The notes: generated by a model from the sequence alone, not told the origin. A stretch of DNA of 64,000 nt from Petrimonas sp. IBARAKI (GCA_002356435.2 AP018040.2:2294001-2358000), one strand, 5' to 3'; positions 898-50,053 are shown, numbered from the stretch's first letter. Numbers and translations are program-made.

Positions 898-939
898 CTT
901 CGTTCGATTAAAATTATTTATTTTTCAGGGATGATTTTA

Positions 940-1779: not shown

Positions 1780-1800
1780 ATTTGTACAAAATTTATGTGA

Positions 1801-2948: not shown

Positions 2949-3072
2949 TTAAAGATAGCCAAACTCATTCTTCAATTGCAAAATGGTTTTGGCAAACACC
3001 GGATGAACGGTGTCTGGCGAGATTTCGGCAAAAGGGGTCAACACAAAGTCGCGCGAATGGAAGCGGGGATGC
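2949..3072 (-). pseudogene. Displaced 3' end of folK
   Basis: Read on the minus strand, this fragment encodes HPRFHSRDFVLTPFAEISPD followed by about 20 more residues to a stop at 2949. It is the C-terminal 40 residues of 6-hydroxymethyl-dihydropterin pyrophosphokinase without the rest of the gene. Over 2982-3072 it matches the intact folK at 46504-46594 with one base difference, which changes Leu to Ser. Further toward the stop the two copies diverge at DNA level but still encode related ends (ILQLKNEFGYL here, ILELKKGLQYSGGA in the intact gene). That looks like two alleles of one gene end rather than a recent copy. Similarity stops abruptly at 3072. Confidence 0.9.
2982..3072. repeat. Left copy of 91-bp direct repeat flanking the island
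   Basis: This stretch equals 46504-46594 at a constant offset of 43522 bp with one mismatch, in the same orientation. It consists of folK 3'-end coding sequence. Together the two copies bracket the whole glycan-utilisation island, as attachment-site cores or recombination joints do. No integrase or transposase gene is visible inside. Confidence 0.93.
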
Positions 3073-4308: not shown

Positions 4309-5067
4309 TTACTTGATAATGATATTCTCTTCCAGGATCCCGGCAAGCACGTTTCCCTGCTGGAACCCGTGCCCCAGGTGTTGCCGGAAACCTTCCGCGT
4401 ACTTGCGGTTCACCTCTTTTCCCCTTACCTCCGCAAAGTGTTTCATGGAAAGGATGTACTCGTCCACCTTGTGGTGTTCAAGCAGCCAGTCCCGCTGGCT
4501 TGCATGGGCTTTCAACATCTCCTCCTTAACCGGCATCTCTCCCGTTATGTCCACATACATCGAGGGGGCGACGGCATGTCCGAACTTGTCCTTTCCATCC
4601 ATGGCGTCCGCGTAATAGAGGTAGGGTGACGGCTCGAAGGGCGCTTCATCAACTTCCATGTTTTTTATGCCACAACAGAAGCAGGCCGTCTGAACAATCC
4701 TTGCGGTCGTCTCGTGATCCACCATGTAGTCCGTCGGGCTGGCGGTAATAACTATCGAGGGCCGGATCTTTCTCAACACGGCGGTTGTCCTGTTTATCGC
4801 TTCCCTATCGTAGATTATGTACACATCTTCGAGCCCCACGCAATGGTAGGTTGCCCCGATAATCTGCGCGGATCTGCGTGCCTCGCCGGTCCTTATCCGG
4901 GAAATTTCCTCCCGGGTGTGTACCGCAGAGCCTTTATCTCCGGGAGTCATGGTGACAATATGAACCTCCCAGCCCCTGTTTCTAAACAGGGACAATGTCC
5001 CGGCACACATGAATTCCGCATCGTCCGGATGCGCTAAAATGGCAACAATTCTTTTTTCCAGATCCAT
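4309..5067 (-). CDS. PIG-L/LmbE family N-deacetylase
   Basis: This is a zinc-dependent de-N-acetylase of the PIG-L/LmbE family, which removes acetyl from N-acetylglucosamine-type groups in small molecules. The Zn motif AHPDDAE is at residues 12-18 (His13, Asp16), and the third ligand region PTDYMVDHE is at 111-119 (His118). The 252-residue length is typical and there is no signal peptide, so it should act in the cytoplasm. It precedes the NagB-like gene by 26 bp and follows the RhaT-type symporter by 40 bp. The composition changes sharply at this gene: it is GC-rich, whereas 5108 onward is AT-rich. The deacetylase/deaminase pair may therefore have been joined to the operon from another source. 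Confidence 0.88.
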   Translation of the reverse strand: MDLEKRIVAILAHPDDAEFMCAGTLSLFRNRGWEVHIVTMTPGDKGSAVHTREEISRIRTGEARRSAQIIGATYHCVGLEDVYIIYDREAINRTTAVLRKIRPSIVITASPTDYMVDHETTARIVQTACFCCGIKNMEVDEAPFEPSPYLYYADAMDGKDKFGHAVAPSMYVDITGEMPVKEEMLKAHASQRDWLLEHHKVDEYILSMKHFAEVRGKEVNRKYAEGFRQHLGHGFQQGNVLAGILEENIIIK

Positions 5068-5107: not shown

Positions 5108-6148
5108 TCAGCTTGCATAATAATTTCCAAAACCAATCAAGACTACAGATATTATCAATAAAATGATTCCTGCCAGTAAATATTTTATCACATTTTTACT
5201 TACTAATTGCCACTCTTTCAACCACAGCCCCCATAGATTACTGAAGATTATAATGGATGCCATATGAATGCTCCAACTTGCAAAATCGAATTCGCCCATT
5301 TTTGTTGTACCCATACCGTAAAAGAAAAACTGACCGTACCACATTATCCCGCTTAGCATTGCCAAAAAGGAGTTGCGATAGAATGTTTTCGAAGACGTTA
5401 CGGTAAATGTCGTATCTGATTTAGTCTTTGACCAAGATAGAATTGTATAGATAAAATTAGTAGTAAATCCACCTGCCAGGATAAAGACATAACTTGGATT
5501 GTTCATGAATACTGTTTGGGTTCCCTTTTCAATTGCATGATTCGCAATGGGTCCACCCAACTTGATCGCAATTGCCATACAAGCACTCATGACACCTCCA
5601 AAAACGGCCATCGTTATTCCTTTTGCGGCCGAAAACTCTTTTACCGATTCCTGTTTCTGCTCCTTGGTTAAATTTTTATCCTTTAATACTCCGGCATATC
5701 CGCACAGAATAATTCCGGCAATACATACCATAAATCCTAAAATTATAATGATTCCAGCCGTTGACGAGAAAAGCATCATAAATTTATTATCCATGATTGC
5801 AGGAACAATTGTTCCGACAATTGCACAAACACCAAGTGATATGGATTGCCCGAGGGAAAGGCCTAAATATCTCAATGCAAGACCTGCCCCCAGTCCTCCA
5901 AATCCCCATAAAATACCAAAAGTATACGTCAGGATTTTACTGCTTAACGGACTGTCTCTTAAAATATCGATTAAATGAGGTGCTGTTAAGAAACCTCCGA
6001 TCCAAGGCATTACCATCCATGCAACAAAACCAAGGCTTATCCAATAGATTTGCCACGACCATTTTTTAACGAAATTGTACGGAACATAAAAACTGGCCGA
6101 AGAAAAGCCACCTATAAAGTGTAGTATGATTCCTATTAATTGAGACAT
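5108..6148 (-). CDS. rhaT: RhaT-type L-rhamnose/proton symporter family protein
   Basis: This is an inner-membrane sugar:proton symporter of the RhaT family (drug/metabolite transporter superfamily). The 346-residue length matches RhaT. About ten hydrophobic segments can be counted, and the N-terminal signature GGFSSASFYVPYNFVKKWSW corresponds to the conserved first helix and loop of RhaT. RhaM is encoded two genes upstream in the same operon, which strengthens the rhamnose assignment. Homologues also occur in other sugar loci, so another deoxy-sugar is possible. The gene is AT-rich like the genes before it. Spacing to the mutarotase-like gene upstream is 10 bp, indicating co-transcription. 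Confidence 0.85.
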   Translation of the reverse strand: MSQLIGIILHFIGGFSSASFYVPYNFVKKWSWQIYWISLGFVAWMVMPWIGGFLTAPHLIDILRDSPLSSKILTYTFGILWGFGGLGAGLALRYLGLSLGQSISLGVCAIVGTIVPAIMDNKFMMLFSSTAGIIIILGFMVCIAGIILCGYAGVLKDKNLTKEQKQESVKEFSAAKGITMAVFGGVMSACMAIAIKLGGPIANHAIEKGTQTVFMNNPSYVFILAGGFTTNFIYTILSWSKTKSDTTFTVTSSKTFYRNSFLAMLSGIMWYGQFFFYGMGTTKMGEFDFASWSIHMASIIIFSNLWGLWLKEWQLVSKNVIKYLLAGIILLIISVVLIGFGNYYAS

Positions 6149-7118: not shown

Positions 7119-7445
7119 TTAATCAAGATGAAAAACTTCGAGTAATAAATCCTCTTTTCCTTTTTCATCGGTTTCATTACCGCAAACAAGAACTTCAGTC
7201 ATATACTTCCACCATTTTATACATACTTCGGACTTGCTCATTTCGCTAAACAACACTTCATCTTCAACTTCGTAATAACCAAAAAGATACTCATTATCAG
7301 GATGTAAAAAAATAGAATAATTATTTACCCCGTACTTTTTTAATTCCTTTTCAAGCTCCGGCCAAATGGGATTATGCCTTTTTATATATTCTTCTGCTTT
7401 TTCAGGCTGCAGATAGATTAAAAATGCCTTACGAACTTTATTCAT
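7119..7445 (-). CDS. rhaM: L-rhamnose mutarotase RhaM
   Basis: RhaM interconverts the alpha and beta anomers of L-rhamnose before isomerisation, in the cytoplasm. The 108-residue protein aligns along its length with Escherichia coli RhaM. The RHNPIWPEL motif is at residues 23-31 with the catalytic His24 (His22 in E. coli). NYSIFLH and LFGYYEVED follow, then KWWKYM, and the C-terminus ends LLEVFHLD. It sits between the CE4 deacetylase (5 bp) and the mutarotase-like gene (9 bp) in operon A. No rhamnose isomerase, kinase or aldolase gene is in the window, so the rest of the pathway must lie elsewhere. Confidence 0.95.
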   Translation of the reverse strand: MNKVRKAFLIYLQPEKAEEYIKRHNPIWPELEKELKKYGVNNYSIFLHPDNEYLFGYYEVEDEVLFSEMSKSEVCIKWWKYMTEVLVCGNETDEKGKEDLLLEVFHLD

Positions 7446-19658: not shown

Positions 19659-19895
19659 ATTTAATAATTACTACTTCGTTTCCTTCTTCCTGTTTGATTA
19701 ATCTTTTTCAAACATTAAATTTTTCTCAAAAGCACATTCTTATATACCTAGGCATTACCTATAAATTTTTCTAAAATTTATTTCTCACGTATTTAAGATA
19801 AACTAAAACAAACTCATTTAAGAAGAATTACTTTCAGACTATACATTTAGTCCAACAAGAGAAATAAAAAAAGTATCAATTTTTATTTTTCACAA

Positions 19896-19970
19896 CAAAG
19901 AAAAAGGAATATTAGCACAAATAGGAAGCATTTTGCGCATTATTTTGCATATATTACGCAAATTAAGAAA
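19896..19970 (-). promoter_or_regulatory. Operator A: 21-bp-spaced TTGCGCA repeat plus -7-like box, upstream of susC pair 1
   Basis: In plus-strand notation the half-sites are TTGCGCA (19933-19939) and TTACGCA (19954-19960), starts 21 bp apart, followed by AATTAAGAAA. The minus-strand promoter box TTTCTTTG (19903-19896, a variant of TAnnTTTG) begins 30 bp from the near half-site. Positions 19895-19970 align without gaps to 46238-46313 with 9 differences in 76. Two-turn direct repeats are what dimeric AraC/XylR regulators bind. The remaining intergenic sequence (19659-19895 and 19971-19995) is AT-rich leader with no other structure that I can support. Confidence 0.8.
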
Positions 19971-34362: not shown

Positions 34363-37300
34363 TTAAAATTTCACGGAAAGCCCTATGTTAAAAATCTTCA
34401 TTAATAAATAATCCATATCTCCACCCGATGCTTCCGGATCAATAACTTTTAACCTATCCCAAGTATATAAATTGTATCCATTTAAGTAAACTCTCATGTT
34501 ACCAATGCCTAAACGCTTTAAACCAGAAGTATTGAAATTATAACCTAATTCAACATTTTTTAAGCGAATGTAAGATGCATCTTTCATCCAAAAATCAGAA
34601 TCCTTTAAATTATTTGCTGCGCTTGCAGCCAAACCTAAACGAGGATAAGTAGCGTTATTCCCTTTTTCTGGAGTCCATTGTCCATCTACCATATATTGTA
34701 ATAGAGAATGGTCATGTGTACTACCAAAAGCAGTTCTATATAAGGATTGTAAATTTCTTGATGTGTGAGTTGCACCTGAAAAAAGCATTACTAGATCAAA
34801 ATTTTTAAAATTAAATCCGATATTAGCACCAAATACATATTCAGGATATTCTGGATAACCAATCGCTTTCGTATCATAATTATCAATTCGTCCATCTTGA
34901 TTTATATCTTTATATCTCATATCACCCGGAACTGGTATCATATTGTGATCTGGAAAATCTTTGTAGTTTTGAACATCTTCTTTCGACCAAAAACCATCCC
35001 AAATTAATCCCCATCGTTGTCCAACAGGTTTTCCTGTTCTCAATAACCAATCATATTTTTTTGGTATTTCGTCTGAAAACAATATTTTATTTCGTGAAAA
35101 TGAAACATTGGAATTAATAAAGTAATTAAAATCTCCTAATTTATCCCTCCACTCAATTGACAATTCATATCCACGATTTTCAACTTCTCCAATATTAACT
35201 GCTGGTAATGTAATCGCAAGATATTCGGGGACAACTTGACGGGTAGTAAGAATATTATTTCTATATTCATCAAACAAATCAAAAGTAAAACCTAACTTGC
35301 TGTTAATTATTCTCAAGTCTACTCCAACGTTTCTTTTTCTGGCTTTTTCCCAAGTTACATTAGGATTTCCTACTTGTCCTTCTGAAGCCGTATATTGATT
35401 AACCGGATTATCGGTTCCGAAATTATAACCACCTGACTGTAACAAATAGCTGTCAGGTAGATAAAGAAATCTATTTCCACCCTGAATATCATTTCCAACT
35501 ATTCCATAAGATGCTCTAAATTTTAAATAATCAATAAAATCTATATTTTTCATAAAGGTTTCTTCTGTTGGAATCCATCCAACTGAAACAGCAGGAAATA
35601 ATCCAAATCTTTTACCTTTAGCAAAATTTTCAGAACCGTTATATCCCAAATTTATATCTAACATATACTTGGTCATATAATCGTAAGTAACTCTCCCTGC
35701 AATTCCAACATAACCTAAAGGTATATCTCTGAATGCAGCAGGATAAAAGATCTTATTTGCATTATAAAGTATTAATCCTGTAATATTATGGTCTCCAAAA
35801 CTATTACTATATGATAGAGCTGTTTCAAAATACCAATTTCTCGATTTAGAAGATGATTCACTAAATCCTCTTTGACCATCAATTCCAAACTTTCTGAAAA
35901 CAACTTTTCTGCTGTCAGGTTTGGTGGAATCAACATCTTTTTCAAAATATGGTTCATAATAGGCTCTACTTACTGGCATGTTTTTTGTTCTGGAAAAAGA
36001 ACTGTTATTAGCATATTTTATTCTATATGAAAGTCCTTTTGTTATAAAATCGAGATTTTGAGTAAGAAGTATATCAAGATTTAATACGTTATTATTGAAT
36101 TTGGTAGTACCTAAGTTGTAAAAATGATCAAGAGCATCATACTTTGCCCCTGAGATGTAAGTATTTCCAACGCGGATATATTTACCATCCACAATACCTG
36201 GTCCGGTAAATGGTGCAGCCCAGTTCATGTATTCAAAAAGGTCATTTATTGTCCAACCAGGATTCCCAGACTGGTACGGCATACTGCGAACCTCGCTTCT
36301 TCCTCCCGTTGTAAGTGAAATTTTTGTACTTTTAGTTACATCAACATCGATATTTGCCCTGTAATTATATCTGTCATAACCAAAATTATAATTTACATCT
36401 GAACCAAAAGTATTAAACATTCCATCTTGTCTAAGATATCCTACGGACACAAAATATTTTACGATTTCTGTCCCTCCAGATATATTAACATTATTATTTG
36501 TTTGCAGGGATGCGGGTTTAAATATTATGGAGGGCCAATCCATGTCGGGATAAATCAAAGGATCTGAACCAGTCCTAAAAGCTTCAATAGCTTCATCAGA
36601 AAATTTCAATTGAGCATTTGGGTTGTCATTTAATTGTGCCTGATTATAGCTCGTAGCATAAGTATATGCATCAGCATATTTAAGGAGTTTGGTTGGAGAT
36701 TGCAATCCAAAACTTGTAGTAAAAGAAACTGTTGGAGTTCCTTCACTACCTCTCTTTGTTGTAACTAAGATAACTCCGTTTGCTCCTCTAATTCCATAAA
36801 CTGCTGTAGCTGATGCATCTTTTAAAACTGTAATAGATTCAACTTCATTTGGATCCAACTGAGTAAATGAACGCTCCACCCCATCTACCATTATCAATGG
36901 AGCTGATCTGGATTCAAATAATGAACCTATTCCACGCACCAAAATGCGTGGATCATCAGCGCCAGGCATTCCTGAATATTGTATAGTAGATAAACCTGTT
37001 ACCCTACCAGCTAAAGTATTTGCTATACTTGCTGCAGGCGATTTTATTAAGACATCAGAACTAACAGATGATACGGAACCTGTCACTGTAAATTTCTTTT
37101 GAGTACCATATCCTACAACAACAACTTCATCCAACGTTCTTCTGTCCTCTTCTAACGTAATATTAAGAGTTGTTCTTCCATCGATAGGAACATCTTTTTC
37201 TATATACCCGATATATGAAATACGAAGTATTGCGTTTGGCGGAATATTTAGCGTAAAGTTTCCTTCTACATCTGTTACAGTTCCATTCATCGTCCCTAGT

Positions 37301-37548
37301 TCAATTACATTTGCTCCAATGATTGGTTCACCATTTTCATCTGTAACATTACCTCTAATTGTGATATTTACCTGCTGTTGAATTTCTAGAGAATGGAAAG
37401 ATGCATTAAAATACTCCTTAGCCCAGTAAATATCAGTTGAGGTTTTAGAAAAAAGAGAAAATGTACATAATAAGAATAAAATTATTAACATGCCCCTTGA
37501 TGGATGTTTAGCCATGTCATAAATATTTTTCTCGGTATAATCATTCAT
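34363..37548 (-). CDS. SusC/RagA-family TonB-dependent transporter (pair 3)
   Basis: This outer-membrane importer has 1061 residues. It has a long N-terminal extension before the mature start (a second Met at residue 13 may be the true start), then the carboxypeptidase-like domain (ITIRGNVTDENGEPIIGANV). The TonB-box region DEVVVVGYGTQKK, the plug with ITVLKDASATAVYGIRGANG, and a barrel ending IFNIGLSVKF follow. It is the first gene of operon C. Operator C lies about 190-265 bp upstream, and the regulator gene ends just beyond it. Expression is probably tightly inducible. Confidence 0.95.
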   Translation of the reverse strand: MNDYTEKNIYDMAKHPSRGMLIILFLLCTFSLFSKTSTDIYWAKEYFNASFHSLEIQQQVNITIRGNVTDENGEPIIGANVIELGTMNGTVTDVEGNFTLNIPPNAILRISYIGYIEKDVPIDGRTTLNITLEEDRRTLDEVVVVGYGTQKKFTVTGSVSSVSSDVLIKSPAASIANTLAGRVTGLSTIQYSGMPGADDPRILVRGIGSLFESRSAPLIMVDGVERSFTQLDPNEVESITVLKDASATAVYGIRGANGVILVTTKRGSEGTPTVSFTTSFGLQSPTKLLKYADAYTYATSYNQAQLNDNPNAQLKFSDEAIEAFRTGSDPLIYPDMDWPSIIFKPASLQTNNNVNISGGTEIVKYFVSVGYLRQDGMFNTFGSDVNYNFGYDRYNYRANIDVDVTKSTKISLTTGGRSEVRSMPYQSGNPGWTINDLFEYMNWAAPFTGPGIVDGKYIRVGNTYISGAKYDALDHFYNLGTTKFNNNVLNLDILLTQNLDFITKGLSYRIKYANNSSFSRTKNMPVSRAYYEPYFEKDVDSTKPDSRKVVFRKFGIDGQRGFSESSSKSRNWYFETALSYSNSFGDHNITGLILYNANKIFYPAAFRDIPLGYVGIAGRVTYDYMTKYMLDINLGYNGSENFAKGKRFGLFPAVSVGWIPTEETFMKNIDFIDYLKFRASYGIVGNDIQGGNRFLYLPDSYLLQSGGYNFGTDNPVNQYTASEGQVGNPNVTWEKARKRNVGVDLRIINSKLGFTFDLFDEYRNNILTTRQVVPEYLAITLPAVNIGEVENRGYELSIEWRDKLGDFNYFINSNVSFSRNKILFSDEIPKKYDWLLRTGKPVGQRWGLIWDGFWSKEDVQNYKDFPDHNMIPVPGDMRYKDINQDGRIDNYDTKAIGYPEYPEYVFGANIGFNFKNFDLVMLFSGATHTSRNLQSLYRTAFGSTHDHSLLQYMVDGQWTPEKGNNATYPRLGLAASAANNLKDSDFWMKDASYIRLKNVELGYNFNTSGLKRLGIGNMRVYLNGYNLYTWDRLKVIDPEASGGDMDYLLMKIFNIGLSVKF

Positions 37549-37737: not shown

Positions 37738-37812
37738 CAAATTAAATAACTTAAGATCAGGAAATGGATACTTATTGCGCAGAATATTATACATTTTGCG
37801 CAGAATGAGAAA
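37738..37812 (-). promoter_or_regulatory. Operator C: 21-bp-spaced TTGCGCA repeat plus -7-like box, upstream of susC pair 3
   Basis: Two perfect half-sites TTGCGCA lie at 37775-37781 and 37796-37802, starts 21 bp apart, followed by GAATGAGAAA. The minus-strand box TTAATTTG (37745-37738) begins exactly 30 bp from the near half-site, as at operators A and B. This is the most symmetrical of the three copies and lies 24 bp past the end of the XylR/AraC-type regulator gene. The rest of 37549-37835 is AT-rich leader. Confidence 0.8.
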
Positions 37813-37835: not shown

Positions 37836-38990
37836 CTAAGGTTTTTTGTATTTTTTTCGAAATTCCAAAGGAGTATATCCTTTTACCTTTTTAAAGTACC
37901 TGGAGGCATTTTTACAATTATTAAAACCCGATTCGCTTGTAATTTCATAAACCTCTCTGTCTGTTGTAAGTAGCAGGTTAGCAAAATATTCTATTCTATA
38001 ATTTAAAAGAAACTGATAGATAGATATCCCTAATTCCTGCCTAAACTTAATTTCTAGGTTTCGTCTCGACAATGGCACTAAGTCTGTTAATAGTTTAATA
38101 TTATAGTTATTTCTGAAATTGTTTTCTATATAATTAATAACTTTTATTATATTTTTATCTTTTATAGAAAATTGTTCAGTTGATTTTCTTAGTTCTATAT
38201 GTAGGGGATCAATTGAAATGCTAAAAGGCTCGTTACGACGGTTTAAAATTATTTTGTCTATCTGTCTTCCTATTTCGTATCCTCCTTTTTCGATATTTAA
38301 GACAATAGATGATATCGGGGGTTCGGATAAGTTACATATCAACTCATCATTATCGACTCCAAGAAGTGAAATTTCTTGCGGTATCAAAATATGGTTCATC
38401 TTACAAACCTCTGAAATTTGGATTGCAAAATTGTCGTCACATGCAAACAGAGCCACAGGTTTGGGCAAGGAAATTAACCATTCCTCGAGTTCAATATGAG
38501 CTCTACTCCATTGGATTTCATTTAAATTATCCGAATCGTAATAATAATAATTTCCTCTAATCTTTTCTACCTCGCTTCGGTATCCCTCTGCTCTTTCTAA
38601 AGACCATTTAAAGCCTTTGTAGCCATAAAAAGCAAAATTTTTGTATCCTCTTTGTATAAAAAATCTTGCAGCTAATCTGCCTGTGCTAATATAATCACCG
38701 TTTATGTATGAGAAATATTCATTTTTTTCATTATAATTTTGTAAAAAAACCGGTATATTTAGGTTTTTTAATATATCAAACCTTCCCTGTTCCCATTGAG
38801 CAATAATAGCATCTGCTTTCCACTCTTTAGCCCAATCGAAAATACCGATCTCTCCAAGCAAAGTCTTATAATACAACGGCATTCTGTAAAAGGTCCATTC
38901 TCCATTTTCTTTTGTATAATCCATTAAACCTCTCAGGAGTTTTCTGCTAAACTCAGTGGAGTAGTCAATAAGAAGTAAAATTTTAATCAT
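37836..38990 (-). CDS. XylR-type transcriptional regulator (LacI-like sensor plus AraC DNA-binding domain)
   Basis: This 384-residue regulator joins a periplasmic-binding-protein-like sugar sensor (residues 1-275) to an AraC-type double helix-turn-helix (about 280-384), the layout of XylR. Sensor landmarks are LLIDYSTEFSRKLLRGLMDY, INGDYISTGRLAARFF and LLGVDNDELIC. The DNA-binding part shows LSRRNLEIKFRQELG and ESGFNNCKNASRYFKKVKGY, ending TPLEFRKKYKK. It is a single gene upstream of operon C on the same strand. XylR-type proteins bind direct repeats two helical turns apart, matching operators A, B and C, so it is the likely activator of the whole island. The sugar it senses is unknown. Confidence 0.92.
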   Translation of the reverse strand: MIKILLLIDYSTEFSRKLLRGLMDYTKENGEWTFYRMPLYYKTLLGEIGIFDWAKEWKADAIIAQWEQGRFDILKNLNIPVFLQNYNEKNEYFSYINGDYISTGRLAARFFIQRGYKNFAFYGYKGFKWSLERAEGYRSEVEKIRGNYYYYDSDNLNEIQWSRAHIELEEWLISLPKPVALFACDDNFAIQISEVCKMNHILIPQEISLLGVDNDELICNLSEPPISSIVLNIEKGGYEIGRQIDKIILNRRNEPFSISIDPLHIELRKSTEQFSIKDKNIIKVINYIENNFRNNYNIKLLTDLVPLSRRNLEIKFRQELGISIYQFLLNYRIEYFANLLLTTDREVYEITSESGFNNCKNASRYFKKVKGYTPLEFRKKYKKP

Positions 38991-39555: not shown

Positions 39556-40260
39556 TCAATGAATACAGTTTCTATTGATATTGCGGTAAATACATGTTTT
39601 ATTGTTGCAAATATCGCATGCGTAGCCTCTTTTCTTTACCTTTTTCCCGATGCCGACGATCCCGCTCACGCTTTTTATAGGTATCATCAGGCTGCTCCCC
39701 GTCAGGCGGATGTTGCAGGGCTGTCCGGGAAGAAGGGAGAAAAGCGGTTGCTGTTCACTGACAGGCCAGTTGCAATAACCGGGGCTGTACCGGTTGGTGA
39801 CATGCATCCCAAGCTCCCTGAAAGCATTCTCCAGTTTCTCCTGAATCAGGTCCATGGCTCTCTCCACCACCCATGAACCCATGGTGTCGGTGATGAATCC
39901 CTTCAGGTAATCCCCCTCCTTGTTGTACTCGCGTGAACGGGCAGTAAAACCTTCACCCGCCGTACAGACAAGCAGGGCCAGCTTTTCCGCTCCCTTCATG
40001 TACCCGCAAATCTGTTGTTGCGGGTGGATCTTCCTGTCCAGGATCCTGATCGACCCCTCCTTTTCGTCAATGCGGATATCCTCATACACCGCATATCCTC
40101 CCCGTATGCTTGCCAGACCGGGGAGTTGGCCGAACAGCCCGGTCGCCTCGTGCACCACGGGATTGTCGGGTGAGTGGTCAGGCACCTGCAGTAGCCGCAA
40201 CAAGTCGCCGAGGTGCAAGCGCAATTCGTCGGGTTCAATGTGATAATCGACAAAGGTCAT
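39556..40260 (-). CDS. MetH activation-domain-like protein (corrinoid reactivation)
   Basis: This resembles the S-adenosylmethionine-binding activation domain of cobalamin-dependent methionine synthase, used as a stand-alone protein. The key motif is RYSPGYCNWPVSEQ, equivalent to the RPAPGY loop, and it is followed by ITGIG-like strands. A C-terminal Cys cluster CDICNNKTCIY could bind metal. Such proteins reductively remethylate an oxidised corrinoid partner. I take the ATG at 40260 (MTFVDYHIEPDEL), 7 bp after the methyltransferase stop; a longer frame from 40341 would overlap that gene by 74 bp and adds basic, unconserved sequence. It is the last gene of a GC-rich three-gene unit with the methyltransferase and corrinoid protein. 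Confidence 0.82.
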   Translation of the reverse strand: MTFVDYHIEPDELRLHLGDLLRLLQVPDHSPDNPVVHEATGLFGQLPGLASIRGGYAVYEDIRIDEKEGSIRILDRKIHPQQQICGYMKGAEKLALLVCTAGEGFTARSREYNKEGDYLKGFITDTMGSWVVERAMDLIQEKLENAFRELGMHVTNRYSPGYCNWPVSEQQPLFSLLPGQPCNIRLTGSSLMIPIKSVSGIVGIGKKVKKRGYACDICNNKTCIYRNINRNCIH

Positions 40261-40267
40261 GAAAGGT

Positions 40268-41272
40268 TCACTTTTGGTTGAAGGCGGCGAGCGCGTCATA
40301 AAAAGCCCGGATGTTCTCCGGCGATACATGCGGAGGCACATCGCAGCCGGTTGACAATACGAAGTTTGGATAAGGGGCGGTCTCTTCGAGGAGCTGCGTG
40401 ACCTTTTCCTTAACCTTTTCGGGGGGCAACATCTGCAATACGGCTACCGGATCGATATTCCCCATCACCAGTACATCCGCCGGACATTGCGCCAGTGCCT
40501 CCGTCATATTTGCCGCATTGCCGAAATGATAGGCCGCGGCACCGGTTTGTATCATGGCATCCGTACAATGGCCCCTGTTTCCGCAATTGTGGAGCACTAC
40601 CATGAACTGTTCGTCCTGTACCGATTCAATGATCCTTTTGACATACCGGGAGGAAAACTGCAGGCAATCATCGTTGGAGAGCAGTCCCGCGGCCGGCTCC
40701 GCGATGACGATACCCGCGCAGCCGCTTTCCTGTTTCAATGCTGTGGCGTAGGACAGGATAAACTGCGTGCACTTCTCGAGCAGCAGTTCCACCGCACCGG
40801 TTTCGAGATAACAACCGGTCATGATCTCCGACATGCCAAACAGTCTGCCCGCCAGGGAAAAAGGGCCAATCACACCGGCCAGTACGGGTCGGGTATCGAT
40901 CATCCCTGCCGCCAACCTGTTGGCTTTCAGGTATTGTGGTATTCTCCCTGCGGCCAGGGAGGGAACCTTCAACCGCTCTACGGTTGAAGCATCAACGAGC
41001 TTCCCGGAAATATGGGGCATGTCCTCCTCCGGAAAAGAGATGTCACATCCAAACGCTTCCGCCTCAACAGTCAGGTCCATGATTACCGTGGAGGCTTTGG
41101 AAGGATATTTGTCGCTAAGCGCTTTAATAGCTCTCGCATGAACCTCCCCGTTCTGGACGGCTTCCCTTACGGAGTATCCCAGCATCTCGATCCCCGGATG
41201 CGTCATGACGGGGATGGCATACCGGTCGGGGGATTGGATGATCTGTTCCATCCAGCTTTTAATTTCCATCAT
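40268..41272 (-). CDS. UroD-family corrinoid methyltransferase (MtaA/CmuA-like)
   Basis: This uroporphyrinogen-decarboxylase-fold methyltransferase has 334 residues. The zinc/thiol motifs of the MtaA/MtbA/CmuA branch are present: HNCGNRGHC (His228, Cys230) and STGCDVPP (Cys310). True uroporphyrinogen decarboxylases lack these. It either moves methyl groups from a methylated substrate to a corrinoid protein or from the corrinoid to a thiol or folate acceptor. The start overlaps the corrinoid-protein stop in an ATGA arrangement (41272/41269), so the two are translationally coupled. The substrate cannot be read from the sequence. Confidence 0.88.
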   Translation of the reverse strand: MMEIKSWMEQIIQSPDRYAIPVMTHPGIEMLGYSVREAVQNGEVHARAIKALSDKYPSKASTVIMDLTVEAEAFGCDISFPEEDMPHISGKLVDASTVERLKVPSLAAGRIPQYLKANRLAAGMIDTRPVLAGVIGPFSLAGRLFGMSEIMTGCYLETGAVELLLEKCTQFILSYATALKQESGCAGIVIAEPAAGLLSNDDCLQFSSRYVKRIIESVQDEQFMVVLHNCGNRGHCTDAMIQTGAAAYHFGNAANMTEALAQCPADVLVMGNIDPVAVLQMLPPEKVKEKVTQLLEETAPYPNFVLSTGCDVPPHVSPENIRAFYDALAAFNQK

Positions 41273-41949
41273 GATGCATTGTTGATTGTCAGTTTATCCA
41301 GTATCTCCACCATCTCCTGAGGTCCGTCCGTATAATGGTCGGCTCCGATTTTTTGCGCAAATTCACGGTTCAGCGGGGCACCGCCCACAAAGGTGATCAC
41401 CTCCGGAAACGCTTGTTTGATTGTTTGGTTGATAACCGCCATGTTGGCCATGGTCGTTGTGAGCAAGGCTGACATTCCCACAAAGGCGGAGGGATGGTCC
41501 TGAAGCGCTTCAATAAATTTCGTTGCAGGGACATCCACGCCCAGATCGATGATTTCATATCCGTTTCCCTCCGCGATCATGCTGACCAGGTTCTTTCCGA
41601 TGTCATGCAAATCGCCTTCCACCGTGCCGATGATCAGTTTTCCCTTGTGTGCTACCGTTCCGTCAACGAAAAATTTTTTCAGGTGCATCATCCCGCAGTT
41701 CATTGCCTTGGCGCTCATCAGCACCTGTGGTACGAAGACCCGGTTTTCCCTGAATTTTGTCCCGATGCGTTCCATCCCTGCGATTAATCCTTTTGAAAGT
41801 ATTTCCGAGGGTGGAAAGTTTAACTCCAATGCCTGCAGGGTAAGTTCGTCCACACCCGGTTGTCCCTTCATTTCCGGGGGATAGGGGACGCTCCGGTTAA
41901 TCTTCCCTTTATCCACACAATTGGCAATCTGCTCAAGAATATTTTCCAT
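41269..41949 (-). CDS. Corrinoid (B12-binding) methyl carrier protein
   Basis: This 226-residue protein has an N-terminal helical cap (about 1-95) and a Rossmann-like cobalamin domain, as in MtaC/MtbC/MtmC. The base-off cobalamin motif DLHDIG is at 113-118, with the lower-ligand His115. Later come VGMSALLTTTM (SxL motif) and FVGGAPLNREFAQKIGADHY (the GG motif). It carries the methyl group between two methyltransferases. It is the first gene of a three-gene operon with the UroD-like methyltransferase and the activation protein. The block is GC-richer than both neighbours. Confidence 0.93.
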   Translation of the reverse strand: MENILEQIANCVDKGKINRSVPYPPEMKGQPGVDELTLQALELNFPPSEILSKGLIAGMERIGTKFRENRVFVPQVLMSAKAMNCGMMHLKKFFVDGTVAHKGKLIIGTVEGDLHDIGKNLVSMIAEGNGYEIIDLGVDVPATKFIEALQDHPSAFVGMSALLTTTMANMAVINQTIKQAFPEVITFVGGAPLNREFAQKIGADHYTDGPQEMVEILDKLTINNAS

Positions 41950-42297
41950 ACGATATTATGATTATTGAGTTCATTAAAAATGACATCTCTAAATTTAAAA
42001 AAAGAATTGACACACCTCCAACAGTACAATATAGATGTTGCTGCTAAACATTATCAATCTGAAAAGATTCATTTACATACAGCAGAGATTAACTTACATA
42101 TTTCAACTAATCTAGATTTGACTCAAATGGATAGGTCTTTTTTAGAAAACATAAGATAGCTTTTGTTTGATGTCTTTAAAATGCAAAAAATTCCAGGACG
42201 TTATTTTAAAAAAACACTTCAGTAAAACTGGTTTATTTACCTAATTTTACAAGTAATCCTTTAATGTCTGCATTTGCAGATCTTCCTGAAGATTTAA
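41950..42297. other. Gap between corrinoid operon and second methyltransferase; possible gene debris
   Basis: This AT-rich stretch has no confident gene. On the plus strand it contains a 59-codon frame from 41980 (starting MTSLNLKKELTHLQQYN). A second frame through 42254-42335 runs MSAFADLPEDLINTAHIFQS to a stop inside the convergent methyltransferase gene. Both are Leu/Asn-rich and I recognise neither. They could be remnants of a disrupted plus-strand gene or chance frames. No hairpin or operator copy is seen. Confidence 0.35.
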
Positions 42298-43443
42298 TCA
42301 ATACTGCCCATATTTTTCAATCATTTGAGATAACATAAATAAACGTTCTTTTGATACCATGGGAGCAATTGAACAGGCAGTACTGAGTATAAACCCTTTT
42401 CCTTGCATTTTTCCAATCTCAATAATTTGACGCACATCATTTTTTGCTTTCTCGTCGTCAGCAAAAAGCAATGTGTTAACCGAATCAATATTCCCTTTAA
42501 TAAAAAGCTCATTCCCAATTCGTTTAAACGCGTCAGACAAATCAACATTTCCTATCGGAGGGGGATCTAAACATTCTAATCCGGAGGCATTACTCTGGCA
42601 CATCAACTCCAACCGATCTCCAATAGAACCACAGGTATGAATGTATGTGTGCTTTCCTTTTTTACGAATAGCACTAATTATTTTCTTTTCGTAAGGTAAA
42701 ACAAATTCTTCGTATTGTTCAGGCGAAATGAAACCCATTCCGGCAAATGGAGAAGAAATTTTAATAGCATCAATATTTTTTTCACACATCTTCAGTGCAA
42801 TATCCAATATTCCATTTGTGTATTTTTCAAGGACTGATTTACTCTTCTCCGGTGACATGATTAATGAAATCAGGCCGTTCTGGTACCCAAACAAATCAAG
42901 AAAATAATCAAACGGGGACGTGATCTCTCCATGTATAGAATATTCCTCTCCTACTTTCTGATAAACACTATCAAATATTTCGAATAGATTATCGGTATCT
43001 AGCTTAAAATAAAGATTATTAGATACAGGGATATAATCAATTACTGATGGAATATCAACTTCTGAAACTATTTCTTCGATATCAAGTGTTCTTTTCCTTT
43101 TATGAATTGTAACTAAAGGTAAATCATTTAACGAATGAATTTCAGTTCTGTCGTTAAATATCAATTTTTGTTTTCCATCATCAAGCAATTCTTGCGACAC
43201 CAACTCCTTTCTCCAATTTTCCGAATGGCCATGGAGGCTAATCAAAATACCATCAAACTTAAATCGCTTGCATAATTCAACCAAGCCTTCAGCAAAAACC
43301 TTTTTATTATACCAGAACTCAACAGGATCGGGCTTAAGCTGTTGCAACATGCTTCCAATACTAAACTGACACATTAACGGGACCCTGTCAGGTTTATTTA
43401 AATTCATTGCAATGTTAACCCGTTCTTTTGAAGTAAGTTTCAT
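42298..43443 (-). CDS. Second UroD-family methyltransferase (AT-rich, operon B)
   Basis: This 381-residue protein of the uroporphyrinogen-decarboxylase fold carries the methyltransferase motifs YIHTCGSIGDRL (His and Cys for zinc) and LSTACSIAP near the end. It is distantly related to the 334-residue protein at 40268. A typical corrinoid system needs two such enzymes, one for the methyl donor and one for the acceptor, and these two bracket the corrinoid protein. This copy is AT-rich like the PUL and lies downstream of the oxidoreductase and isomerase genes, so it would be expressed from operator B. That suggests it handles the substrate-specific demethylation. The gap of 61 bp to the broken gene upstream does not suggest a separate promoter. 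Confidence 0.85.
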   Translation of the reverse strand: MKLTSKERVNIAMNLNKPDRVPLMCQFSIGSMLQQLKPDPVEFWYNKKVFAEGLVELCKRFKFDGILISLHGHSENWRKELVSQELLDDGKQKLIFNDRTEIHSLNDLPLVTIHKRKRTLDIEEIVSEVDIPSVIDYIPVSNNLYFKLDTDNLFEIFDSVYQKVGEEYSIHGEITSPFDYFLDLFGYQNGLISLIMSPEKSKSVLEKYTNGILDIALKMCEKNIDAIKISSPFAGMGFISPEQYEEFVLPYEKKIISAIRKKGKHTYIHTCGSIGDRLELMCQSNASGLECLDPPPIGNVDLSDAFKRIGNELFIKGNIDSVNTLLFADDEKAKNDVRQIIEIGKMQGKGFILSTACSIAPMVSKERLFMLSQMIEKYGQY

Positions 43444-43756: not shown

Positions 43757-44683
43757 TTATTCAATCGTTTGAAACAATTTCTCCAAATAATTTTTTGTTT
43801 TTACAATATAGTCGTAGTTCTTCTCTGCAAGCTCATATTCGATAGTTATAGTCCCCTTAAAATGAATCTCTTTAAGATACTTTACAATTTCAGGAAAATT
43901 GACCTCTCCCTCTGGGATAGGCTTTTCTTTTCCTAACTGATAAGGATTTATCGGGTATAACCCATCTTTTGCATGAATCTCCCTAACATATTTGTGTAAT
44001 GTCTTTAACCCGTCTAAAGAATTGGATTTGCCATACATTACCAGATTAGCCAGATCACAGTTAATAAATAAATTTCCAGTTCCAATATCTGTAATAGCCC
44101 TTAATAGTGTAATGGGCGTCTCCTGCCCAGTCTCAAAATAAATATCTATTCCCTTGCTCAAAGCATACTCTCCCAGTTCTTTCATTAATTTTACAAATTC
44201 AATATAAAGAGTATCCCGGGGATTTTCCGGAATAAATCCAAAATGGGCATGAACAGCAGGGATTCCGGCTTGTTTACAGAAATCGATCCCTTCGTACAAC
44301 CGTTTAATTCGTTCTGTCCTGAACTCCCTTGGGATTAACCCAATCGTAGAAGGTCCTTCGATAAAATTCCATATATATTTACCGGGTCCCATGCAAATTA
44401 AAGTTGTTGGAAAAACTTTATATTTTTTTGAGGAAGAACGTATTGATTGGGCTAACTCCGGCGTATATTCAGTTACATTTAACTGACAGTGAGAGAAGCC
44501 CAGTTCTTTAATCTCTTTAAATTCTTTTTCAGGATTGTTACCTCCAATAATCACCCCAAAAGTAACATCGCTCTTGAGTTTTCCAATGTTTTGATTTTGG
44601 TATGGTTGTTTGTCCTCCGCTTTTATTAAATGCGAAAAAACAAGTATCAATATCGAGGTAACTAGAATTTTATTACGTTTCAC
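43757..44683 (-). CDS. Exported sugar phosphate isomerase/epimerase-like protein (AP endonuclease 2 family)
   Basis: This is a TIM-barrel protein of the xylose-isomerase-like/AP-endonuclease-2 family with an N-terminal signal peptide (residues 1-22, ending IKAEDKQ). Barrel strands carry typical metal-binding acids: DIYFETGQETP, FINCDLANLVMYG, VREIHAKDGLYP and a late GTITIEYE. Secreted members in Bacteroidetes glycan loci usually accompany Gfo/Idh/MocA oxidoreductases, as here (7 bp upstream), and probably isomerise keto-sugar intermediates outside the cytoplasm. Length (308 aa) is normal. Substrate unknown. Confidence 0.85.
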   Translation of the reverse strand: MKRNKILVTSILILVFSHLIKAEDKQPYQNQNIGKLKSDVTFGVIIGGNNPEKEFKEIKELGFSHCQLNVTEYTPELAQSIRSSSKKYKVFPTTLICMGPGKYIWNFIEGPSTIGLIPREFRTERIKRLYEGIDFCKQAGIPAVHAHFGFIPENPRDTLYIEFVKLMKELGEYALSKGIDIYFETGQETPITLLRAITDIGTGNLFINCDLANLVMYGKSNSLDGLKTLHKYVREIHAKDGLYPINPYQLGKEKPIPEGEVNFPEIVKYLKEIHFKGTITIEYELAEKNYDYIVKTKNYLEKLFQTIE

Positions 44684-44690
44684 AGTTTTG

Positions 44691-45974
44691 TTATTTTTTT
44701 ATGTCAAATTGTTTTAAATCTAATTGAGGATCAATTTTCGCTGATGAAGAATAAATTTCTTCCCAAGTAACCAATTCCTGTCGATTAGTAGCTTCTCTTC
44801 CGAGCACTGCGCTTAATGTCGATTCACAACCTGCCTTAAGTTGATTTAAATAACGGCCTGTTTCAATGCTGTCAATAAAAGACTTTCCTTTATTCTTATC
44901 TGCATCATCAAGCGATGAGAGTGAACCTCCTGTAGCAATCTTTTCTGGGGTCAGAACATCTGCAGACTTCACCACACCCGAATCCCATTCGTTCTCTCCT
45001 TTAATAAACACTCCGCCGGTATAATGAGCTTCGGCAATTCCTGTTGTTCCGATAAACCTTGCACAAACATCGCCAAAACTCTGGCCTAGCTGAGTAGATT
45101 GAACCGAGACATTCACATTATTCGGATATTTATAAATTACTTGATAGTTTGTCAAAGTATTTCCAAATTCCAGACAACCCTTTCGTCCCCCTATACCCAT
45201 AGCATAAAGCGGATTACTTTTAAGTGTCCAGTTGCAGACATCTATCATGTGTATCCCCTGATCCAACAATATACCTCCCGATAACTCGTTGAAATGAAAA
45301 TGATTTCTAATACGGGCTTCGTCAAATGCCATTCCTTTTATTGGCTTTAACGGGATCTCCGAAGAAAAATAATAGAGTTGTACACTGACAATTTCACCGA
45401 TATCCCCACGCTGAATTCGTTTGACCATTTCAACAAAAGGTGTCGCATAACGGATCTGAAAACCCATTACAACACTTAGCTTTTCGTTAACAGTTTCACT
45501 TACCTTCAGTATGCGCTTACACCCATCTATATCTGTTGCGGCAGGTTTCTCGCAATAGACATGTTTCCCCGCAGCAACAGCACTTTCCAAAATTTCAGGA
45601 TGTGCATAAGCAGGAGTAGAGATGAGTACTGCATCGATTTCCTTGTTCTCCAATAATTTCAAATATGCGTCTGCCCCTTGATGGATATTTTTTTTTTGAA
45701 TATCACTAAATCTTTTTTTTGAGTTAAAAGCATTTAAGGTTTTACTTGCCTTACTCAATTGATCCTCAAACAAATCGGCCAATGCAAATATATTAATATT
45801 AGTATATTTCGACATAGATGAAATAACTGACGTTCCTCGGTTACCACATCCTATAAAGCCTACGTTGATAGCAGAATTATTAGTTGAACCGAAGACTATA
45901 TGGGGCTTCAGAACTGTAAAAGCTGCTATGGCACTGCTCGTTTTTAAAAAGTCTCTTCGTGCAATTCTTTTCAT
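44691..45974 (-). CDS. Gfo/Idh/MocA-family oxidoreductase with Tat signal (operon B)
   Basis: This is an NAD(P)-binding sugar dehydrogenase family protein of 427 residues. The twin-arginine signal ARRDFLKTS is at residues 5-13, the Rossmann loop GFIGCGNRGTS follows at about 39-49, and the EKP catalytic-lysine motif is in HVYCEKPAATD. It lacks the lipobox seen in the 21083-22435 protein. As the first gene of operon B it lies about 260 bp downstream of operator B. The pairing with an exported isomerase suggests an oxidation/epimerisation step on a sugar in the periplasm; family members can also be redox glycosidases. Confidence 0.87.
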   Translation of the reverse strand: MKRIARRDFLKTSSAIAAFTVLKPHIVFGSTNNSAINVGFIGCGNRGTSVISSMSKYTNINIFALADLFEDQLSKASKTLNAFNSKKRFSDIQKKNIHQGADAYLKLLENKEIDAVLISTPAYAHPEILESAVAAGKHVYCEKPAATDIDGCKRILKVSETVNEKLSVVMGFQIRYATPFVEMVKRIQRGDIGEIVSVQLYYFSSEIPLKPIKGMAFDEARIRNHFHFNELSGGILLDQGIHMIDVCNWTLKSNPLYAMGIGGRKGCLEFGNTLTNYQVIYKYPNNVNVSVQSTQLGQSFGDVCARFIGTTGIAEAHYTGGVFIKGENEWDSGVVKSADVLTPEKIATGGSLSSLDDADKNKGKSFIDSIETGRYLNQLKAGCESTLSAVLGREATNRQELVTWEEIYSSSAKIDPQLDLKQFDIKK

Positions 45975-46238
45975 GCTTTTTCCTTTTTTAAGATAGATTT
46001 AACATCATGTTTACTTATTTTCTCATTTTACATTTCCAGTCAAATAATTTCCAACGCTAATTATCAGTATCAGTATAGGAATAATTGACAGGTTATACCT
46101 GACCATTAATGGACACTCTTTTTCTGTTAATTAAAGTTTATTCTTTTTATCAGACCCAAAGATTAAAGAAATTTACAATTAATGACATAAGAATCGACCT
46201 ACTAGCAAAAAGGAAGAGCTTTTCATATTTGTTTAAGA

Positions 46239-46313
46239 CAAAGAAAAAGAAATATTAGCACAAATAGGGAATATTTTGCGCATTTTTTTGCATATATCAC
46301 GTAAAATGAGAAA
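46239..46313 (-). promoter_or_regulatory. Operator B: 21-bp-spaced repeat plus -7-like box, upstream of operon B
   Basis: The half-sites are TTGCGCA (46276-46282) and TCACGTA (46297-46303), starts 21 bp apart, followed by AAATGAGAAA. The box TTTCTTTG on the minus strand (46246-46239) begins 30 bp from the near half-site. With operator A it shares 67 of 76 positions, ungapped, including the region between box and operator. Its second half-site is the weakest of the six. The remainder of 45975-46461 is AT-rich, and I see no other feature before the folK stop. Confidence 0.8.
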
Positions 46314-46461: not shown

Positions 46462-46956
46462 CTAAGCACCGCCGGAATATTGCAACCCTTTTTTCAGTTC
46501 TAGAATGGTTTTGGCAAACACCGGATGAACGGTGTCTGGCGAGATTTCGGCAAAAGGGGTCAACACAAAGTCGCGCAAATGGAAGCGGGGATGCGGAATG
46601 ATTAATCCGGGTTCCTCAACGATTCGGTTATCAACCATCAGGATGTCAATATCGATGGTGCGATCGGCATACCCACCATCCGGAGATTTTTTTGTCCGCC
46701 CCAGTTCCTTTTCAATCGCCTGAGTTACACGCAGTACCTCTCTGGCTTCCAGGATTGTGACCAGTTCACAAACGGAATTAACGAACCTGTTTTCAGACTC
46801 GAAACCCTCCGGATCGGACACATAAAAAGCGGATTTGGAAATAATTCTCCCTATCCGCTTGTCAATTTCTCTGTAGGCACGCTCGATATTTTTTTCCTTG
46901 TCTCCCAGGTTGGAGCCCAATCCCAAAAAAACAACATGAATATCGTTATCAGGCAT
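46462..46956 (-). CDS. folK: 6-hydroxymethyl-7,8-dihydropterin pyrophosphokinase (HPPK)
   Basis: HPPK transfers pyrophosphate from ATP to hydroxymethyl-dihydropterin in folate synthesis. The 164-residue protein shows the N-terminal LGLGSNLGD loop, the YADRTIDIDILMV motif with the metal aspartates, and IPHPRFHLRDFVL. It follows queA in the core gene string. The C-terminal 31 or so residues lie within or beyond the direct repeat, and the last dozen (LELKKGLQYSGGA) differ from the displaced copy at 2949. The present 3' end may therefore have been supplied by the incoming island while the enzyme stayed intact. Confidence 0.96.
   Translation of the reverse strand: MPDNDIHVVFLGLGSNLGDKEKNIERAYREIDKRIGRIISKSAFYVSDPEGFESENRFVNSVCELVTILEAREVLRVTQAIEKELGRTKKSPDGGYADRTIDIDILMVDNRIVEEPGLIIPHPRFHLRDFVLTPFAEISPDTVHPVFAKTILELKKGLQYSGGA
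46504..46594. repeat. Right copy of 91-bp direct repeat, inside folK
   Basis: This is identical to 2982-3072 except for one base, in the same orientation, and lies within the intact folK. The DNA to its right is ordinary folK sequence; the DNA to its left leads into the island. It marks the right joint of the roughly 43.5-kb insertion. Confidence 0.93.
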
Positions 46957-46991
46957 TTTTCAGCGTAGCATCATCGCACAAAGTGCGCGTT

Positions 46992-48041
46992 TTAAATTAT
47001 CAGCATAGCATCCCCGTACGCACCAAACTCGTATTTCTCCTTGATGGCCGTCTGATACACATCCATAATTCTTTCGTATCCGCCGAAAGCAGTCGTCACC
47101 ATCAAAAGCGTGGAGAACGGCAGGTGGAAGTTGGTAACCAACGCATCGGGTAGTGTAAAGTCATAAGGCGGGAAAATAAACTTGTTCGTCCATCCCTCCC
47201 TCGGCTTGATGTGCCCGTCTGTACTGATGGTGGTTTCAATAGCCCGCAGAACCGACGTACCCACGGCACAGATTTTGTGCCCGTTGTCTTTTGCCGTATT
47301 CACCTTGTCGCACAACTCCTGCGTAATGATCATCTGCTCCGAATCAACTTTATGCTTGGTTAAATCCTCCACGTCGATATCGCGGTAGGCACCTAATCCG
47401 TGGTGAAGCGTAAGGAAGCCGTAATCGATATTTTTAATCTCCATACGTTTGATCAACTCCCGACTGAAATGAAGTCCTGCCGCAGGAACAACGACAGCTC
47501 CTTCGTTATTGGCAAAAATATTCTGGTACCTCTCCGCATCCTCCGGCACGACCGACCGCTCCATATATTCTGGGATCGGAGTTTCACCGATGGAGAAAAG
47601 CAGGTCTTTGAACTCTTCGTACGGTCCGTCGTAAAGAAAACGAAGCGTACGTCCGCGTGAGGTGGTGTTGTCAATCACTTCAGCTACGAGCTCTTCATTT
47701 TCGCCAAAGTACAACTTGTTCCCGATCCTTATTTTCCGAGCGGGATTAACCAAAACATCCCACAGATGCTGCGCGGGATTCAACTCCCTGAGCAAAAACA
47801 CTTCTATTTTGGCTCCGGTTTTTTCTTTGTTTCCGAACAACCGGGCAGGAAATACCTTGGTGTCGTTGAAAACGAAAAAGTCGTGGGCGTCAAAATAATT
47901 CAGAATATCCTTAAAAACAAGATGTTCTATTTTATCGGAATTTCGATGAACCACAAGCAATCTGGATTCATCGCGATGTTTACTCGGATGCTTGGCAATC
48001 AATTCCTCCGGTAAATTAAATTTAAACTGAGAAAGTTTCAT
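46992..48041 (-). CDS. queA: S-adenosylmethionine:tRNA ribosyltransferase-isomerase
   Basis: QueA transfers and isomerises the ribosyl group of SAM onto preQ1 in tRNA to make epoxyqueuosine. The 349-residue sequence has the usual N-terminus ([21 protein letters not shown]), the [11 protein letters not shown] motif, and the late [11 protein letters not shown] and [12 protein letters not shown] motifs. Length is typical. It lies 35 bp before folK and 48 bp after truB in the core string. Confidence 0.97.
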
Positions 48042-48089
48042 ATGTGATTAAACTGATTCTTTATAATACTATCGTGAAATAATTTATTG

Positions 48090-48791
48090 TTAAGCCTCTC
48101 CCTTGGTTATCTGCCGGTCAAAAAAATCGTCCAGCTCTTCAACCTTTAAACAATCATTCAATGATACATCTCCCACCCTCGTTCGTTGGAGAGCAAGAAG
48201 ATGTGCACCCGACTGAAGGCTTTCGCCTATGTCGCGCGCCAAAGCACGTATATACGTGCCTTTACTGCAAACAACCCGGATAGTTATCGTTGGTAAATTG
48301 TAAAACAACAATTCAATTTCCTTTATAACCAATATCTTTGGTTTTAGTTCAATTTCTTCATTCTTCCGGGCAAACTCGTACGCTCTTTTACCGTCGATCT
48401 TTACTGCCGAAAAAAGAGGCGGGATCTGCTCAATTTTTCCGGTGAATTGCTTCAGGCACTCCTCCACCTTTTCGCGTGAGATGTGTTCCACCGGATATTC
48501 GGCATCAATTTCCGTCTCCAAGTCAAAAGAGGGAGTAGTTGCTCCCAGCCGGATCTCGGCAATATACTCTTTTGTTTGAGCCTGTAACCTTTCAATCTCT
48601 TTTGTCTTTTTTCCCGTGCAAACGGTCATTACACCTGTAGCCAGCGGATCGAGTGTTCCCGCATGCCCTACTTTCAGCTTTTTAATTTTCAGTTTCTGGC
48701 ACAACTTCGCCCGTACTACCCTCACCAGCCGGAACGAAGTCCAATGCAGCGGTTTATCGATGTGTAAGATCTCTCCTTCAATAAAATCCAT
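48090..48791 (-). CDS. truB: tRNA pseudouridine-55 synthase
   Basis: TruB makes pseudouridine 55 in the T-loop of tRNAs. The catalytic motif VGHAGTLDPLATGVM places the nucleophile at Asp48, as in Escherichia coli. KPLHWTSF comes before it, and later VVCSKGTYIRALARDIG. At 233 residues it lacks the C-terminal PUA extension of longer homologues, the common short form in Bacteroidetes. It starts 1 bp after the uppP stop, so the two are coupled. Confidence 0.96.
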   Translation of the reverse strand: MDFIEGEILHIDKPLHWTSFRLVRVVRAKLCQKLKIKKLKVGHAGTLDPLATGVMTVCTGKKTKEIERLQAQTKEYIAEIRLGATTPSFDLETEIDAEYPVEHISREKVEECLKQFTGKIEQIPPLFSAVKIDGKRAYEFARKNEEIELKPKILVIKEIELLFYNLPTITIRVVCSKGTYIRALARDIGESLQSGAHLLALQRTRVGDVSLNDCLKVEELDDFFDRQITKGEA

Positions 48792-48792
48792 A

Positions 48793-49677: not shown

Positions 49678-49693
49678 CTAACTTATCAGGGAA

Positions 49694-49939: not shown

Positions 49940-50053
49940 ACTTTTTAAATTATGAGTTTGGAGTTTTATGCGTGTTGTGTAAGATGTCAGATCGCTATAC
50001 TGAATGAAAACTCTTGGATTGTATATAACATCTTTTGTTTGAAATCTATTAAA

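Follow-up and report, generated by a model that had tools for sequence, protein, structure and literature searches.

As judged from its sequence, a corrinoid methyl-transfer module is firmly present within a glycan island of Petrimonas sp. IBARAKI, in a 64,000-nucleotide stretch (AP018040.2:2294001-2358000; hereafter the window), and is linked to that island by an operator, a recent copying event and recurrence in other genomes. The module consists of a three-gene core at 39556-41949, which encodes a corrinoid carrier, a UroD-family methyltransferase (UROD_A) and a MetH-activation-domain protein (ACT), together with a second UroD-family protein, UROD1 (42298-43443), immediately upstream; all four genes are intact minus-strand open reading frames (ORFs; Table 1). 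Its function is probably the corrinoid demethylation of methylated sugars derived from glycans. UROD1 would transfer the methyl group from the sugar to the Co(I) of the carrier, the MtaA-related UROD_A would use its His-Cys-Cys site to pass it from the carrier to a thiol, most likely homocysteine, and ACT, dependent on S-adenosylmethionine (SAM), would rescue oxidised carrier. Carrier, UROD_A and ACT would form a constant core, and the first methyltransferase would be exchangeable and set the substrate. We infer three elements of this scheme: that the substrate is an O-methyl sugar, which sugar it is, and what accepts the methyl group.

The first-pass annotation of the window had described two UroD proteins with zinc motifs, a carrier with DLHDIG and a MetH-activation protein, and Pfam searches and motif alignments bear this out. 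The URO-D domain was matched by UROD_A (E = 1.3e-57) and UROD1 (1.1e-35), both B12-binding domains by the carrier (7e-23 and 4e-15), and Met_synt_B12 by the annotated ACT ORF (6.5e-9), whose start, because of homologue lengths, is probably at 40260 rather than 40341. DLHDIG is invariant among 11 aligned corrinoid homologues. ACT has the SAM motif RYSPGY, kept as RxxPGY in most homologues, and a C-terminal CxxCxxxxC, of which CxxC and a further Cys occur in all intact homologues; these motifs suggest that remethylation is reductive, depends on SAM and involves a metal or iron-sulfur site. In NCBIfam, the UroDs are nearest to methylcobalamin:CoM methyltransferases and the carrier to methylamine/betaine carriers, all scoring well below cut-offs, so that none of these proteins belongs to a named equivalog. 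The structure model of UROD1 is a UroD barrel of moderate confidence (pLDDT 70.6, pTM 0.75), with human UroD and MtaA (4AY8; TM 0.70/0.78, 19% identity) among its top matches, the latter being the best methyltransferase match. UROD1, UROD_A and the carrier, two MtaA-like UroDs with a corrinoid protein, are encoded codirectionally within 2 kb. No Ram/RACE reductive activase was matched among the locus proteins scanned, the activator there being the Met_synt_B12 protein, and no MtrH/MeTr-type folate methyltransferase was found, the only Pterin_bind proteins of the genome being FolP and MetH. A search of plasmid DNA returned weak B12-domain matches only.

UROD1 follows MocA-family and AP-endonuclease-like genes in one operon (MocA-APend-UROD1), and a 76-nt box is common to the upstream regions of this operon and of the susC operon at 19658 (88%, E 3e-22). 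The motif TGCAAAAWAATGCGCAA, or its TGCGCAA-pair form (paired TGCAAAA/TGCGCAA), has exactly three sites in the 64 kb, one each before the UROD1 operon, the 37548 susC and the 19658 susC. Because the box is shared and the motif is confined to these upstream sites, the earlier claim that UROD1 sits behind the same operator as the susC operons is confirmed. The surrounding island spans ∼43 kb (window 3073-46483) between 111-nt direct repeats that are 93% identical. A same-species genome (G049) has the empty site, with window 1-3072 and 46504-50254 contiguous across a 91-bp overlap, which marks the island as a recent insertion; no integrase was recognised among the ORFs of the 43-kb island. Its predicted content is that of a polysaccharide utilization locus, with a SusC/SusD pair, glycan-active enzymes and a regulator that joins a periplasmic-binding domain to AraC (PBP-AraC).

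The core itself is a copied cassette that begins 8 nt ahead of the carrier gene and extends as far as the activator gene does. Its resident counterpart, 1.46 Mb distant, is 99.7% identical: over the first 2,278 bp there is no difference, and all six differences fall within 31 bp near the 3' end, where three match the G049 allele. AATATC microhomology at both junctions fits excision and re-insertion via short homology, and the cassette has a G+C content of 53% in an island of 34-36%. The resident site is another glycan locus, where a different UroD (UROD2, L005 13859-14905; His-Asp-His) comes after the core, in a neighbourhood of glycoside hydrolase (GH) families GH29 and GH127 (several genes), ADP-ribosylglycohydrolases, a PfkB kinase and a sugar permease. 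The resident locus of G049 is syntenic and 99% identical, and the window copy is absent; since that genome has the resident core only and its island site is empty, the core came secondarily to its place next to UROD1. Most simply, the UROD1 island arrived and the host core was then copied in 348 bp behind UROD1, so that, by this reconstruction, the incoming methyltransferase obtained a corrinoid core of its own, copied from that of the host. Such a copy is a natural experiment linking both parts, and makes the hypothesis directly testable.

The same event bears on whether the core is simply a split methionine synthase, methylating homocysteine and being reactivated without a role in demethylation, that landed behind UROD1 by chance. 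Carrier, MetH-type activation domain and thiol-type UroD do resemble the parts of MetH, with which the core has in common a corrinoid domain, a SAM-dependent activation domain and the logic of a thiol acceptor, and some UROD_A loci are without glycan genes. The core differs, however, in consisting of separate proteins with neither a folate nor a homocysteine domain, a complete MetH is encoded elsewhere in the genome, and a second UroD is paired with the core in nearly all carrier-holding loci. Only four UroD genes of the genome exceed the Pfam cut-off, and UROD1 alone belongs neither to the resident locus nor to the copied core; for a random landing in the right orientation within ∼350 bp of this single orphan UroD, in a genome of 3.69 Mb, the chance is ∼5e-5 (a post hoc estimate). 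We therefore regard a split methionine synthase as very unlikely.

Orthologues of UROD_A were found in 16 of 101 same-family genomes (two of the 16 with weak, partial matches only) and in 23 of 393 same-order genomes; a class-wide draw returned only genomes already found to carry it. They form a single clade (support 100/100). Nearly all carrier-bearing loci encode an additional UroD or a UroD-like 354-amino-acid protein (U354), and most core loci include GH31, GH2, GH38, GH78, GH141, GH29 or GH20b/67N-like proteins, MFS, SSF or RhaT transporters, or susCD. Among 97 neighbour proteins scanned, AraC and LacI regulators, MFS, SSF, GH31, GH38, GH2 and MocA were among the commonest families; in a control of 108 proteins from elsewhere in the same contigs or genomes, those hydrolases, regulators and MocA were absent from the 25 commonest families, which did include SSF and SusD. 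Glycoside hydrolases and regulators and transporters of sugar type are accordingly over-represented near the core. Co-occurrence across Bacteroidetes PULs, which the first-pass annotation had proposed to check, shows as a recurrent pattern in these relatives, a core with a variable UroD in glycan loci. In a minority of loci (L125/L126, L139-L141 and L132/L134/L138) there is no partner UroD or no glycan link. Membership of U354 in the UroD family is only suggested, by an hhalign probability of 67 to UROD2 types; it had no hhalign relation to UROD_A and no PDB relative. We give about even odds to a broader proposal, that anaerobic Bacteroidota have a general, modular corrinoid demethylation of many glycan-derived sugars, in which a constant core works with interchangeable UroDs encoded in sugar operons, including those of sialic-acid and rhamnose type.

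Several individual loci deserve mention. An operon conserved in several genera (L070 6346-7410 and homologues in L059, L062, L065-L072 and L123) has the order GH20b/67N-like, rhaM, GH31, U354 with YHLDG, SSF and core, then GH2 or GH141/GH78; the sugar that it handles may be a methylated one of pectin type. In L131, L133 and L061, two or three different UroDs surround one core, as if one core served several substrates. UROD_A and the activator directly follow a large protein in L135/L136 (9337-13780), with no carrier gene; by eye, we take the large protein to be fucokinase-like. In L132, sialidase, NanA-type and NanE-type genes were considered as one operon with UROD_A and the carrier, a reading rejected on two grounds: the genes converge, and the LacI-UROD_A-carrier unit recurs without sialidase or Nan genes in L134 and L138.

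Relatives of UROD1 itself were sought in named genomes, which yielded one, and in the 393 same-order genomes, which yielded three more; with UROD1 they form one clade (100/100). The first, from Mariniphaga sediminis (L075), is 84% identical and shares its operon with genes for RhaT, DUF6786, rhaM, polysaccharide deacetylase, M24 peptidase, MocA and AP-endonuclease-like proteins; this operon corresponds to two parts of the window island and lies in a locus that also encodes a further UroD-like protein, a homologous PBP-AraC regulator and SusCD. The second has a GlcNAc 2-epimerase to one side and, to the other, a NanM-SSF fusion, a DHDPS/NanA-type lyase and a sialate esterase-like protein; behind the third come a GlcNAc 2-epimerase, a UroD-thioredoxin and a protein that reads from its sequence as CobW-like, and the fourth adjoins a GH20 on a short contig. 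These contexts link UROD1 to the catabolism of sugars, of which rhamnose is not the only one. The rhaM and RhaT genes of the island point to a rhamnose-type sugar; specificity for rhamnose is nevertheless not accepted, because the contexts of the relatives are inconsistent (a sialic-acid operon, an N-acylglucosamine epimerase, a GH20), and amino or sialic sugars would fit as well. The original suggestion of O-demethylation of a methylated sugar is partly supported: the module recurs and is co-regulated with susCD via UROD1, demethylation of a glycan-derived sugar is the best reading, and O-methyl rhamnose as the sugar is not established.

Elsewhere in the Mariniphaga genome a related carrier gene heads a single run with genes for a UroD-thioredoxin fusion, homocysteine S-methyltransferase and CobW (L086 8597-12902), a possible stand-alone corrinoid route to methionine. 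Two Mariniphaga contigs (L091 and L092) share the same gene run over >18 kb, a true duplication or an assembly artefact. The sialic-acid-type operon at L172 2098-12228 (esterase, NanA-type lyase, NanM-SSF fusion, GlcNAc 2-epimerase) encloses the UROD1 homologue and has a His-Asp-His UroD nearby, which suggests a methylated sialic acid.

These neighbourhoods also bear on a demethylation of something other than a sugar, such as an aglycone or small molecule accompanying the glycan (e.g. methanol, a methoxylated aromatic, methylamine or betaine). In favour of such a role, the highest scores of the carrier, all below cut-off, are with carriers for glycine-betaine, methylamine and methanol. Against it, no MtaB or MttB/MtgB partner was present among the locus proteins scanned, one UROD1 relative has genes for sialic-acid transport, lyase and epimerase as its immediate neighbours on both sides, and the partners of the core change with the glycan enzymes rather than with genes for aromatics or amines. 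A non-sugar substrate is in our judgement distinctly unlikely.

The methyl-transfer chemistry can be approached through the zinc sites, H228/C230/C310 in UROD_A and H269/C271/C357 in UROD1. His-Cys-Cys has been reported for the sulfur and selenium methyltransferases of the superfamily, whereas O-methyltransferases have carboxylate or substituted ligands (PMC10418091). Nearly all UROD_A orthologues have His-Cys-Cys, and because of this site and the absence of any MtrH/MeTr protein we propose UROD_A as the second methyltransferase, acting from methyl-corrinoid to a thiol; the gene order in Mariniphaga is the reason for which we infer that the acceptor is probably homocysteine. Partner UroDs of the core have His-Cys-His, His-Asp-His, His-Cys-Asn or, in U354, His-Asp, with His-Cys-Cys in UROD1 and in the partners in L063/L129. 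UROD1 is without a carboxylate or substituted ligand, whereas Asp or His is found in UROD2 and U354, which are paired with this core at other loci. As the Moorella O-demethylase and CdmB contain no zinc (PMC13222342), the site in UROD1 is suggestive rather than decisive.

A UroD chemistry on methylated thiols, selenols or other sulfur and selenium methyl compounds must accordingly be weighed, and the type 1 mlp gene clusters (Kountz & Balskus, PMC10418091) offer the comparison. They too combine several MtaA-like, His-Cys-Cys UroDs with a carrier and an activator and have no folate methyltransferase; UROD_A and UROD1 both bear that sulfur/selenium signature and share one half of the UroD tree. 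The differences are that the clusters have a Ram/RACE activator in place of a SAM-binding Met_synt_B12 protein with CxxCxxxxC, and sulfur and selenium neighbours in place of glycan genes; in the loci read, the core had no sulfur or selenium genes next to it. Of the additional UroDs that accompany the core elsewhere, most are moreover not His-Cys-Cys (His-Asp-His, His-Cys-His or His-Asp), and UROD1 shares the susC operator. The word stem 'Bacteroid' is absent from that paper. Sulfur or selenium substrates are thus unlikely.

Some observations weigh against demethylation of glycan-derived sugars as the function. The His-Cys-Cys site is present in 5/5 members of the UROD1 clade, the relatives of UROD1 total only four, and the UROD_A loci L125/L126 and L139-L141 lack glycan genes. 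The gap of 348 bp between UROD1 and the core means that co-transcription of the core with the UROD1 operon is only presumed. Independent regulation of the module together with its absence from related islands had been named beforehand as evidence to the contrary: UROD1 does share the susC operator, but the Mariniphaga island has no core nearby.

Many glycans of plants, algae, microbes and animals are capped by methylated sugars, and the module points to an undescribed oxygen-free way of taking methyl groups off sugars. P450 demethylation of 6-O-methyl-galactose in marine bacteria (PMC10033563) likewise removes an O-methyl group from a glycan-derived sugar in polysaccharide degraders, but it needs oxygen, releases formaldehyde and involves no corrinoid. 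The Odm/Vdm/Mtv/Mto systems, corrinoid O-demethylases of acetogens and methanogens, and the chloromethane system Cdm (PMC8630106, PMC13222342) resemble the module in having a UroD-family first methyltransferase, a carrier, a second methyltransferase and an activator. They differ in sending the methyl group to folate or tetrahydromethanopterin (H4MPT) via an MtrH/MeTr-type second methyltransferase, for which the module would use a UroD protein, and in acting on aromatic ethers or haloalkanes instead of standing in a context of sugar catabolism. We found no published route of corrinoid sugar demethylation in the open-access literature, a scope in which absence is no proof. If true, an anaerobic corrinoid route in sugar loci would explain how anaerobes open methyl caps, link the use of glycans to the supply of vitamin B12, and assign a role to many of the UroD proteins that at present carry the name uroporphyrinogen decarboxylase.

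Table 1. Features of the window, listed from the module outwards.
Feature	Position	Strand	Basis or context
UROD1, locus-specific UroD methyltransferase	42298..43443	-	Pfam URO-D, UroD fold, own clade
Corrinoid carrier with DLHDIG	41269..41949	-	Pfam B12-binding and B12-binding_2, invariant DxHxxG
UROD_A, UroD-family methyltransferase	40268..41272	-	Pfam URO-D, MtaA/CmuA family similarity, alignment, single clade
ACT, MetH-type SAM-binding activation protein	39556..40260	-	Annotated ORF 39556-40341; Pfam Met_synt_B12 and motifs
Copied cassette, 2,383 bp	39575..41957	-	Near-identical to resident cassette C1:869931-872313
AP_endonuc_2/sugar isomerase-like TIM barrel, UROD1 operon	43757..44683	-	Family match, synteny with Mariniphaga
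GFO/IDH/MocA oxidoreductase, first gene of UROD1 operon	44691..45974	-	Family match, synteny with Mariniphaga
Operator-like box	46238..46313	-	Upstream of UROD1 operon; core motif 46276-46292
Operator-like motif	37775..37802	-	Upstream of susC 34363-37548
Operator-like box	19895..19970	-	Upstream of susC 16581-19658; core motif 19933-19949
Periplasmic-binding-domain/AraC regulator (XylR-like)	37836..38990	-	Candidate operator reader; homologue in Mariniphaga locus
Left direct repeat, copy of folK 3' end	2962..3072	.	
Right direct repeat at folK 3' end	46484..46594	.	
PIG-L/LmbE-type de-N-acetylase	4309..5067	-	
RhaT, L-rhamnose-proton symporter family	5108..6148	-	
rhaM, L-rhamnose mutarotase family	7119..7445	-	
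GHL6/GH42M-type protein	12554-14929		
SusD	15030-16568		Pfam match
SusC/D-like ORFs	16581, 27867, 29541, 32572, 34363		Read from sequence

Further island proteins are glycosidase-like, with no family assigned. Two large paralogues (9591-12536 and 24796-27648; 59% identical) have a weak CBM_11 match, and sequence searches placed them in no known GH family and found no PDB relative; they are likely glycosidases of an undescribed family. The structure model of a 981-amino-acid glycosidase-like protein was discarded (pLDDT 32), and with a poor model and no PDB match the glycan of the island could not be named. A NagB-like assignment for 3350-4282 stayed weak (PDB E 0.65; no Pfam match) and was dropped. 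Of the BtuB/BtuG uptake locus that the first-pass annotation placed outside the island, 61453-63474 encodes a TonB-plug receptor.

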